A DNA stretch of 64,000 bases, taken from assembly GCF_003853705.1 (NCBI RefSeq), contig NZ_QTQI01000001.1, positions 186,001-250,000 on the forward strand, in the 5' to 3' direction. The notes under the pieces are model-generated. The model saw only the letters and a program-made list of their open reading frames with translations. It was not told the DNA's origin and made no database searches. The DNA is from Burkholderia sp. Bp8992. Its GTDB lineage: Bacteria > Pseudomonadota > Gammaproteobacteria > Burkholderiales > Burkholderiaceae. Position numbers and translations under genes: made by a program. Shown piece after piece: positions 32,478 to 35,809 of the stretch; the first letter of the stretch is position 1; each line of letters begins with the position of its first letter.

Positions 32478-33128
32478 ATGGAAAAATTCACTGTACATAC
32501 CGGCGTCGTGGCGCCGCTCGATCGCGAAAACGTCGACACTGACGCGATCATCCCGAAGCAGTTCCTGAAGTCGATCAAGCGCACGGGCTTCGGTCCGAAC
32601 GCGTTCGACGAATGGCGTTACCTCGATCACGGCGAGCCGGGCCAGGACAACTCGAAGCGTCCGCTGAATCCCGACTTCGTGCTGAACCAGCCGCGCTACC
32701 AGGGCGCGTCGGTGCTGCTCGCGCGCAAGAACTTCGGCTGCGGCAGCTCGCGCGAGCACGCGCCGTGGGCACTGCAGCAGTACGGCTTCCGCGCGATCAT
32801 CGCGCCGAGCTTCGCGGACATCTTCTTCAACAACTGCTACAAGAACGGCCTGCTGCCGATCGTGCTGACCGAGCAGCAGGTCGATCACCTGTTCAACGAG
32901 ACGGTCGCGTTCAACGGCTTTCAACTGACGATCGACCTCGACGCACAGGTCGTGCGCGCGGGCGACGGCCGCGAATATCCGTTCGAGATCGCCGCGTTCC
33001 GCAAGTACTGCCTGCTGAACGGCTTCGACGACATCGGCCTCACGCTGCGCCACGCGGACAAGATCCGCCAGTTCGAAGCCGAGCGGCTCGTGAAGCAGCC
33101 GTGGCTCAACACCAAGCTGGTCGGCTGA
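32478..33128 (+). CDS. leuD: 3-isopropylmalate dehydratase small subunit
   Basis: A 216-residue swivel-domain subunit that completes isopropylmalate isomerase with Leu[17 protein letters not shown] near the start and [18 protein letters not shown] in the middle are the substrate-recognition motifs of this family. The ATG at 32478 has GGATC just ahead. It is co-oriented with leuC and leuB. Confidence 0.96.
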
Positions 33129-33205
33129 TCGTGCCTTTCGGGCGAGCGCGCCGGCGGCGCGTTCGCCGGCCTGCCTCATAAAACCTACCCAGTCAGGAAT
33201 TTCGC

Positions 33206-34273
33206 ATGAAGATTGCAGTGCTGCCCGGCGACGGCATCGGTCCGGAAATCGTCAATGAAGCCGTGAAGGTGCTGAACGCACTCGACGAGACGTTCGATCT
33301 CGAACAGGCGCCGGTCGGCGGCGCGGGCTACGAGGCGAGCGGTCATCCGCTGCCCGACGCGACGCTGAAGCTCGCGAAGGAAGCCGACGCGATCCTGTTC
33401 GGCGCGGTCGGCGACTGGAAGTACGACTCGCTCGAGCGCGCGCTGCGCCCCGAGCAGGCGATCCTCGGGCTGCGCAAGCATCTCGAGCTGTTCGCGAACT
33501 TCCGCCCGGCGATCTGCTATCCGCAGCTCGTCGATGCGTCGCCGCTCAAAGCCGAGCTCGTCGCGGGCCTCGACATCCTGATCGTGCGCGAACTGAACGG
33601 CGACATCTACTTCGGCCAGCCGCGCGGCGTGCGCGCTGCACCGGACGGCCCGTTCGCCGGCGAGCGCGAAGGCTTCGACACGATGCGCTACTCGGAACCG
33701 GAAGTGCGCCGCATCGCGCACGTCGCGTTCCAGGCCGCCCGCAAGCGCGCGAAGAAGCTGCTGTCGGTCGACAAGGCGAACGTGCTCGAAACGTCGCAGT
33801 TCTGGCGCGACGTGATGATCGACGTGTCGAAGGAATACGCGGACGTCGAGCTGTCGCACATGTACGTCGACAACGCGGCGATGCAGCTCGCGAAGGCGCC
33901 GAAGCAGTTCGACGTGATCGTCACGGGCAACATGTTCGGCGACATCCTGTCGGATGAAGCGTCGATGCTGACGGGTTCGATCGGCATGCTGCCGTCGGCG
34001 TCGCTCGACAAGAACAACAAGGGCCTGTACGAGCCGTCGCACGGTTCGGCGCCGGACATCGCGGGCAAGGGCATTGCCAACCCGCTCGCGACGATCCTGT
34101 CGGCCGCGATGATGCTGCGCTACTCGCTGAATCGGGCGGAGCAGGCCGATCGCATCGAGCGCGCGGTGAAAACGGTGCTCGAACAGGGTTACCGTACGGG
34201 CGACATCGCAACGCCGGGCTGCAAGCAGGTCGGCACGACGGCGATGGGCGACGCGGTGGTCGCGGCGCTGTAA
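33206..34273 (+). CDS. leuB: 3-isopropylmalate dehydrogenase
   Basis: A 355-residue NAD-dependent beta-decarboxylating dehydrogenase giving 2-oxoisocaproate. [14 protein letters not shown] opens the fold. The substrate loop has [14 protein letters not shown], the catalytic Tyr/Lys lie near [10 protein letters not shown] and [16 protein letters not shown], and [26 protein letters not shown] carries the Mg-binding aspartates (seen as [14 protein letters not shown]). An AGGAA site precedes the ATG. Confidence 0.97.
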
Positions 34274-34300
34274 CGCGATGCGGCACCGATAACGTAGAAA

Positions 34301-34337
34301 GGGCGCGAACGGGCCGTGAAAATCGGCCGGTTCGCCC
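34301..34337. repeat. Hairpin after leuB
   Basis: GGGCG-CG-AACGGGCCG and CGGCCGGTTCGCCC can form a ~13-bp stem with a TGAAAAT loop, one mismatch and one two-base bulge. There is no T-run; it may stabilise the leu transcript end or aid Rho-dependent termination. Confidence 0.4.
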
Positions 34338-34348
34338 GCGGTTGGCCG

Positions 34349-34377
34349 TTGTGCGGGCCACCGGCTTTGTGTAGACT
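34349..34377 (+). promoter_or_regulatory. Putative promoter of the asd leader transcript
   Basis: TTGTGC (34349-34354), a 17-base spacer and TAGACT (34372-34377). The expected start site, seven bases past the -10 box, falls on the A of the leader ORF ATG at 34384, implying a leaderless message. Confidence 0.45.
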
Positions 34378-34383
34378 CGAACG

Positions 34384-34503
34384 ATGGCGCTGATTTCCCT
34401 GATCTCCCCGGTCCTGAAACTCCACGGCAACACTGCCCGTGTGGGTGCGCGCGCCATCGTCATCACGAAAACCATTACCACGAAAACGATCATTAAACGC
34501 TGA
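34384..34503 (+). CDS. Putative Thr/Ile/Lys-rich leader peptide upstream of asd
   Basis: A 39-codon ORF, ATG to TGA. Its last 14 residues, [14 protein letters not shown], contain 5 Thr, 4 Ile and 3 Lys. These are end products of the aspartate pathway, in which Asd, encoded 85 bases downstream, is a shared step. The codons (ACG/ACC, ATC/ATT, AAA) form an AT-rich island with ACGAAAAC twice. The composition recalls thrL-type attenuation peptides. No ribosome site is present, but the predicted start site coincides with the ATG. Translation and a regulatory role are inferred, not proven. Confidence 0.5.
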
Positions 34504-34514
34504 TCGCCGTCGTG

Positions 34515-34559
34515 CCCGCCTGTTTCCCCGCGCGGTCACGCGGGGACGGAAATGGCGGG
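34515..34559 (+). promoter_or_regulatory. Long hairpin between leader ORF and asd
   Basis: An inner stem CCCCGCG/CGCGGGG (34526-34545, loop CGGTCA) and an outer stem CCCGCC/GGCGGG (34515-34520 with 34554-34559) stack into one structure, 12 bases after the leader stop. No U-run follows, so any attenuation would have to be Rho-dependent or translational. Confidence 0.45.
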
Positions 34560-34588
34560 GAAGCTCCATTCAAAGCAAAGGGTTAGTC

Positions 34589-35710
34589 ATGAACGTAGGT
34601 CTCGTAGGTTGGCGCGGCATGGTCGGCAGCGTCCTGATGCAGCGCATGCAGGAAGAAGGCGATTTCGACCTGATCGAACCGGTGTTTTTCAGCACCAGCA
34701 ACACGGGCGGCAAGGCGCCGTCGTTCGCGAAAAACGAGACTACGCTCAAGGACGCGACCAACGTCGACGAGCTGAAGAAGTGCGACGTGATCATCACGTG
34801 CCAGGGCGGCGACTACACGAACGACGTGTTCCCGAAGCTGCGCGCGGCCGGCTGGAACGGCTACTGGATCGACGCGGCATCGTCGCTGCGGATGCAGGAC
34901 GACGCGGTCATCATCCTCGATCCGGTCAACCTCGACGTGATCAAGGACGCGCTCGTCAAGGGCACGAAGAACTTCATCGGCGGCAACTGCACGGTCAGCC
35001 TGATGCTGATGGCGCTCGGCGGCCTGTTCCGCGAGAACCTCGTCGACTGGATCACCGCGATGACCTACCAGGCCGCATCGGGCGCGGGCGCGCAGAACAT
35101 GCGCGAGCTGCTGTCGCAGATGGGCACGCTGAACGGCGCGGTGCAGGAACAGCTCGCCGATCCGGCTTCCGCGATCCTCGACATCGACCGCCGCGTGCTG
35201 GCCGCGATGAACAGCGATGCGATGCCGACGAGCCACTTCGGCGTGCCGCTGGCCGGCTCGCTGATCCCGTGGATCGACAAGGATCTCGGCAACGGGATGT
35301 CGAAGGAAGAGTGGAAGGGCGGCGCTGAAACCAACAAGATCCTCGGCAAGCCGGCCATGGGCGAGCCCGGTTCGATCCCGGTCGACGGCCTGTGCGTGCG
35401 GATCGGCGCGATGCGTTGCCATTCGCAGGCGCTGACGATCAAGCTGAAGAAGGACGTGCCGCTCGACGAGATCAACGGCATCCTGGCGTCGGCGAACGAC
35501 TGGGTGAAGGTCGTGCCGAACGAGCGCGAAGCGTCGATGCGCGACCTGTCGCCGGCGAAGATCACGGGCACGCTGACGGTGCCGGTCGGCCGCCTGCGCA
35601 AGCTCGCGATGGGCGGCGAATACCTGTCGGCGTTCACGGTCGGCGACCAGCTGCTGTGGGGCGCGGCCGAGCCGCTGCGCCGCATGCTGCGCATCCTGCT
35701 CGACAAGTAA
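34589..35710 (+). CDS. asd: Aspartate-semialdehyde dehydrogenase
   Basis: A 373-residue enzyme reducing aspartyl phosphate to the semialdehyde, the branch-point precursor of Lys, Met, Thr, Ile and diaminopimelate. [18 protein letters not shown] is the NADP site, [15 protein letters not shown] carries the catalytic Cys, and [16 protein letters not shown] and [15 protein letters not shown] follow the gram-negative Asd pattern (catalytic His in the latter). AAGGG six bases before the ATG fixes the start. A strong terminator follows, so asd ends its transcript. Confidence 0.97.
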
Positions 35711-35752
35711 ATCCGCTGCATGTCCGGCCCGCGGGCCGAACCGCATACGATG

Positions 35753-35799
35753 ACGCGCCGCGTCGGCCCTGGGTCCAGGGCTGGCGCGGCGCGTTTTTT
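35753..35799 (+). terminator. Rho-independent terminator of asd
   Basis: ACGCGCCGCG pairs with CGCGGCGCGT, and the inner GCCCTGG pairs with CCAGGGC; six T follow. It separates asd from the convergent flgE-like gene. Confidence 0.88.
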
Positions 35800-35809
35800 C
35801 ATGGGCCGA

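Follow-up and report, generated by a model that had tools for sequence, protein, structure and literature searches.

A conserved and putatively leaderless threonine-, isoleucine- and lysine-rich leader peptide ahead of asd in Burkholderia and related genera

We examined the region between leuB and asd, the gene for aspartate-semialdehyde dehydrogenase, in a stretch of 64,000 nucleotides from Burkholderia sp. Bp8992 (hereafter, the window; position 1 is its first letter). As described in the initial annotation, this region harbors an open reading frame (ORF) of 39 amino acids with an ATG start, the last 14 residues of which comprise five Thr, four Ile and three Lys, and the gene 3' of the ORF is indeed asd. 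The features of the locus, including those that we place there by inference or as candidates, are as follows.

34273: end of leuB
34349-34354, + strand: -35-like hexamer TTGTGC, seen in the sequence and in part of the relatives
34370-34377, + strand: TG and -10 box TAGACT (TAGACT at 34372-34377), with conserved spacing to the ATG
34384, + strand: predicted transcription start, from the distance to the -10 box
34384-34503, + strand: leader peptide ORF of 39 codons with an ATG start, putatively leaderless, seen in the sequence and in relatives
34454-34531, + strand: 78 nt rich in C and poor in G (C/G 2.23), a candidate site of Rho loading
34459-34500, + strand: control codons, 12 of 14 for Thr, Ile or Lys, with the composition kept in relatives
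34487-34492, + strand: 5' arm of helix H1, CGATCA, within the control codons
34501-34506, + strand: 3' arm of helix H1, TGATCG, including the leader stop codon, with pairing in relatives
34507-34519, + strand: segment 2 (CCGTC, GTG, CCCGC), candidate partner of 34540-34549 in an antagonist helix
34524-34531, + strand: 5' arm of hairpin B, TTCCCCGC
34540-34549, + strand: middle segment GCGGGGACGG, which may pair with segment 2 and also with 34525-34531 (local hairpin)
34555-34562, + strand: 3' arm of hairpin B, GCGGGGAA, with no U-run after it and with pairing in relatives
34577-34582, + strand: Shine-Dalgarno (SD) sequence AAAGGG of asd
34589-35710, + strand: asd (TIGR01745, E 7e-196)

Directly 3' of asd, at 35739-35806, the window also contains a hairpin of high stability that ends in six T (-48.2 kcal/mol when this stretch is folded), which by its look is an intrinsic terminator.

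The Thr/Ile/Lys run is rare in its surroundings. Among the 1,331 open 14-codon stretches that precede a stop codon on both strands of the window, it is the only one with at least 12 of these residues, and none of the 43,037 such stretches in 20 mononucleotide shuffles of the window reaches this number, the maximum being 8. We compiled the control regions of 144 loci (including the window and excluding the divergent locus L061), which amount to 73 distinct control regions with many near duplicates. Over these 73, Thr, Ile and Lys account for 34%, 25.5% and 19% of the residues, respectively, with a median of 11 of the three per 14 residues (range 8-13), and every one of them contains at least two Thr, at least two Ile and at least one Lys. 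Asn and Met, the codons of which also begin with A, make up 0.2% each, and the AAN codons of the run encode Lys 193 times (180 AAA and 13 AAG) versus Asn twice (AAC), which argues that the peptide is selected and not an A-rich RNA alone. These counts are not independent, since the species are kin, yet they suggest that the amino acids of the control region are under selection. The N-terminal two thirds of the leader differ between genera, and 154 close pairs show 204 residue-changing codon differences (79 of them within the Thr/Ile/Lys set) and 137 silent ones. Judged from these comparisons, the tail is conserved in its composition more than in its exact sequence, as control codons would be.

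The frame and the run, on which the initial annotation had built its proposal of attenuation, are kept in relatives. We collected 131 asd loci, namely, those from the best 80 of 593 named genome contigs, those from 50 of 65 genus genomes (as 30 loci and 20 regions), and L001. A Thr/Ile/Lys-rich leader with an ATG start is present at the same position in 96 of the 100 loci that have at least 150 nt of DNA before asd, and Lys and Ile are retained besides Thr; the 31 loci with gaps shorter than 150 nt are outside this count and are mostly covered by the class-wide comparison of asd described below. In the symbiont L039 the leader has decayed, its start and tail no longer being in one frame, and in the reduced symbiont L047 there is no leader; asd remains in both. 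No leader is present in L055, and none was scored in L043, where the locus is at a contig edge, while a third symbiont (L038) has kept it. All of the 48 further loci in which a covariance model (see below) matched and asd was found also have such a leader. The named genera with the leader are Burkholderia, Paraburkholderia, Caballeronia, Trinickia and Cupriavidus. The length of the ORF varies between genera with the frame staying open, and its end lies 81-93 nt from asd (94 nt in L061). On the basis of this conservation in sequence, we regard the Thr/Ile/Lys ORF ahead of asd as a real leader peptide.

In Pandoraea, Massilia, Duganella, Zoogloea, Limnobacter and others, the gap before asd is 26-103 nt and contains no such ORF. 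For the class-wide comparison, we searched 143 genomes, 133 of which had an asd match, and took the 30 best loci, 29 of them outside the family; 28 of these 29 asd loci include enough DNA 5' of the gene to be read, and none of the 28 showed at least 8 Thr, Ile or Lys in 14 residues, whereas known leader loci, L046, L056, L063, L069 and L070 among them, were detected in the same search. The covariance model (R1) was built from the 3' half of the element in 35 sequences. With a threshold of E <= 0.1, it matches 270 of 398 genomes of the family and 10 of 25 genera, at one place in 266 genomes and at two in 4. The tenth genus, g22, has a single match with an E-value of 0.044 and no asd at the locus, so nine genera are solid, and by these searches the leader is common to at least nine genera of the family. 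Further matches without asd in the locus are L180-L182 and L184-L190, all weak, and L179 (E 1.9e-16; 1,612 bases); the matches in the plasmid collection carry no gene annotation. No similar leader was seen ahead of ilvB, hom or amino-acid-kinase genes at eight loci of two genomes, where gene starts could be placed only roughly and that of hom in G001 could not be placed.

As to asd itself, seven of the 65 genomes of the genus (G022, G027, G039, G043, G044, G050 and G058) have a second asd-like gene with 54-57% identity to the query; six of these seven have one place matched by the model each, except that G043 has a weak second one (E 0.07) elsewhere. In one draft genome (G025:C212:211-1328), the asd match falls into two overlapping pieces (residues 1-206 and 206-373), which is perhaps an assembly error.

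The initial annotation had read a promoter ahead of the ORF and predicted transcription to start on the ATG itself. Its letters are as described (TTGTGC, a spacer of 17 nt, TAGACT), and a start 7 nt past the -10 box falls at 34384, the A of the ATG. A consensus scan of 34200-34700 returned no promoter-like site at its thresholds, so the assignment rests on the comparison of relatives. In all of 145 loci but one, L061, a TG followed by TANNNT stands 6-9 nt 5' of an ATG that is in frame (144 loci). The interval from box to ATG is 6 nt in 110 loci, 7 nt in 17, 8 nt in 11 and 9 nt in 4; in two of the 144, an ATG at 3 nt precedes another at 6 nt. These loci present 52 distinct combinations of box and interval, and their -10 hexamers are TAGACT (97), TATATT (40) and four others. 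Of the 144 promoter loci, 59 carry TTGTGC/T at a distance of 17 nt upstream, every one of them Burkholderia, and the part of the promoter that is common beyond this genus is the box GTGTANNNT. The reported lack of a ribosome-binding site extends to relatives: AGGA, GGAG, GAGG and AAGG occur in no box-to-ATG interval of these 144 loci. Transcription starting about 7 nt past the box is thus predicted to begin on the leader ATG or no more than about 3 nt from it, and the leader ORF would itself be leaderless. A study of B. cenocepacia biofilms reports primary starts exactly at the start codon for 72 genes and within 10 nt of it for 42 more, 24 of these start-codon-proximal transcripts being tRNAs, which indicates that leaderless mRNAs exist in the genus Burkholderia; asd does not appear in the main text of that study (PMC4603805).

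A long hairpin was said to follow the leader stop codon. A hairpin does exist there, but the best fold of the spacer in the window uses a local hairpin, and its stability is ordinary: the 88-nt spacer has a z-score of -1.15, and 30 of 200 shuffles fold as well. When the spacer of the window is folded alone, the local hairpin of 34525-34531 with 34540-34546 is preferred over B; when the start of asd is included, the structure with B (-60.1) and the free ensemble (-61.0) are about 1 kcal/mol apart. Hairpin B is GC-rich, with 98.6% of the cells paired in 37 sequences, and almost invariant, and it lacks covariation because it hardly varies. In helix H1, CGATCA of the control codons pairs with TGATCG at the stop codon, with 92.8% of the cells paired and two pairs changed on both sides (4 cells) in the 37 sequences. 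L168 has exchanged an Ile codon jointly with the stop codon, from ATC/TGA to ATT/TAA. For H1 and B together, 96.1% of the cells are paired, versus 41-53% with the partner slid; neither this fraction nor the 4 cells changed on both sides are reached by any of 500 shuffles, and the covariation score is reached by one. Other counts discriminate less: two pairs are changed on both sides in the structure versus three in the +1 slide, 14 of 500 shuffles reaching two; the number of further pair types is reached by 476 of 500; and the swap test of the H1 duplex is weak, with 2,145 of 20,000 permutations doing as well. Taken as sequence evidence, the helix that joins the control codons to the RNA after the stop shows modest compensatory change.

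A helix between segment 2 and the G-rich middle segment (-18.4 kcal/mol as a duplex) would exclude hairpin B. It offers seemingly compensatory examples, namely, CCGUC/GACGG in the window, CGCUC/GAGCG in L018 and GCCUG/CAGGC in L036. However, over the collection its own partners are no better than swapped ones, 2,818 of 20,000 permutations doing as well. In 20 of 21 types, B is more stable than this antagonist helix by 3.6-20.8 kcal/mol, so that the latter could act only kinetically.

As to how transcription might be stopped before asd, the absence of a U-run after the post-stop hairpin, already remarked in the initial annotation, holds, and the scan of 34200-34700 detected no terminator-like site at its thresholds. 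Since there is no U-run, termination would most likely need the help of Rho. In the stretch 34454-34531, C exceeds G by 16, versus a 99th percentile of 12 for the window, and across the 144 loci the best stretch with C over G starts, by the median, 50 nt ahead of the leader's end, its median C/G being 2.21. This fits the involvement of Rho, a fit that falls short of proof because Thr and Ile codons are themselves C-rich and G-poor. From these features we infer attenuation by Rho or through translation, the two routes that the initial annotation had considered. Direct blocking of the asd SD sequence in Burkholderia is unsupported, there being no clear difference between the forced states in the 21 types: the mean unpaired fraction of the SD is 0.59 with B forced and 0.54 with the antagonist forced, and the region of the start codon is open at 0.46 and 0.37, respectively.

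The enzyme encoded by asd feeds the synthesis of lysine, threonine, methionine and isoleucine as well as of the cell-wall component diaminopimelate. We consider it probable, from the conserved features above, that the leader senses through the ribosome the charging of the corresponding tRNAs and tunes asd to how much Thr, Ile and Lys is available. The promoter at 34349-34377 would start transcription at or very near the leader ATG, and a ribosome would load on the bare 5' end with no SD sequence. When charged Thr-, Ile- or Lys-tRNA is scarce, the ribosome would stall in the last codons and cover the 5' arm of H1 (34487-34492); the free segment after the stop could then pair with the G-rich middle segment during RNA synthesis and so prevent hairpin B, the stalled ribosome would additionally cover C-rich RNA, and asd would be transcribed. 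When the amino acids are ample, the ribosome would leave at the stop codon, H1 and hairpin B would form, and transcription would end before asd, most likely with the help of Rho. It speaks against this model that read-through from leuCDB could be an additional feed of asd. A more specific version of this reading is put forward more tentatively, as somewhat less than an even prospect: across the family, a leaderless leader would sense Thr, Ile and Lys and control the branch-point enzyme asd with no intrinsic terminator, its stalled ribosome at once obstructing H1 and hiding a Rho site. To our knowledge, the sensing of Lys by a leader peptide is the least expected part of such a three-amino-acid sensor.

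Control at the level of translation, by which translation of the leader would alter access to the start of asd and not transcription, seems to us unlikely yet worth serious consideration. In Burkholderia, it would take the form of a long-range helix in which the post-stop segment pairs with codons 8-12 of asd and closes the start region. The RNAalifold consensus contains this helix, and 46 cells changed on one side still pair in it while 8 break, none being changed on both sides. At these asd codons, 88 leader-bearing sequences vary less than 31 leader-less ones; however, the leader-bearing species are closer kin, so this uniformity proves little, and most of these codons have the same commonest spelling in the leader-less species. 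The helix would also form during the stall, which is the wrong direction for control by end products. We put it aside because of these codon spellings and this direction. Moreover, forcing hairpin B or the antagonist helix leaves the SD sequence about equally open. In the free fold of the whole leader of L061, the SD of asd does pair with the post-stop segment, but a shorter piece of this locus folds otherwise.

The first codons of asd and the locus L061 each deserve a description of their own. Codons 2-8 of asd in the window (34592-34612) read AAC GTA GGT CTC GTA GGT TGG, and this spelling is near invariant in the 88 leader-bearing sequences; for GTA, GGT, GTA and GGT, the 31 leader-less sequences have the same commonest spelling, with 55-74% uniformity. 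Locus L061, from a MAG of the Burkholderiales, has an unlike version of the leader, MYHGNAIQTKLVSPFATSVAARAISIKTTTIKG, with TACAAT 8 nt before the ATG. Its last leader codons, CACGACGA, could form a helix with TCGTCGTG, which lies past the stop, and the CGCCCTT that follows TCGTCGTG pairs with the SD sequence AAGGGCG of asd in the fold of the whole leader only. As modelled, this locus might operate the same switch at the level of translation.

That hairpin B is an intrinsic terminator working without a U-run is improbable. Its high GC content, near invariance and position are those that a terminator would have, but the scan found nothing terminator-like in 34200-34700, and the hairpin with six T after asd indicates that the lineage does have terminators with U-runs. 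Still less credible is that the ORF encodes a functional small protein of which the Thr/Ile/Lys tail is a part, with no sensor involved: Burkholderia, Paraburkholderia and Trinickia have similar middle parts of the leader (around HGxTAR), but this part is unlike in Cupriavidus, g8 and g24 while the composition of the tail stays, and the peptide has no match in Pfam or NCBIfam. A chance ORF in an A/C-rich spacer, for which its short length would speak, can practically be dismissed, being contradicted by the conserved frame and codons, the rarity of the run and the spacing to the promoter.

Returning to the ribosome-sensing leader that we favor, a search of Rfam with 33100-35000 gave four matches, all far below the gathering score. 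The initial annotation knew of no such leader for asd in Burkholderia, and likewise we found no report of one in Burkholderiaceae in the open-access literature. The enterobacterial attenuator thrL-thrABC has Thr and Ile codons in a leader before genes of the aspartate pathway. However, thrL has an SD sequence and a U-run terminator, is not known to have a run of Lys codons, and controls thrABC, not asd. In tnaC, mgtL and corL, it depends on the translation of a short ORF whether Rho terminates transcription ahead of the gene, and a U-run is unnecessary; they differ in their signals from the asd leader, for which a role of Rho is putative. The trpL leader of Sinorhizobium meliloti has Trp codons and a U-run terminator and precedes trpE.

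Likened by its description, this trpL is also a leaderless leader ORF before a biosynthetic gene, the AUG being the 5' end of the mRNA (PMC10117765). The leuL1, trpL2, thrL and metL leaders of Streptomyces lividans are described as leaderless and as having no typical Rho-independent terminator or U-run, but they concern other genes and other codons in another phylum (PMC8079986). The nearest reported system is SEP5 of Sinorhizobium, a small ORF that was proposed to encode a leader peptide and whose 3' part contains six Thr codons and three for Lys. It lies in the 5'-UTR of a gene that its authors name aspartate dehydrogenase, which may or may not be asd, and it differs in that it is reported to be conserved in Sinorhizobium only and that Ile is unmentioned in its description, by which we liken it (PMC10117765).

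If the proposed mechanism is true, many genera of one family would set the branch point at asd by reading three tRNAs, and would do so with a sensing leader whose start is the extreme 5' end of its mRNA and which works without a textbook terminator. The asd leader would then offer a compact and testable case of leaderless translation coupled to, probably, Rho.
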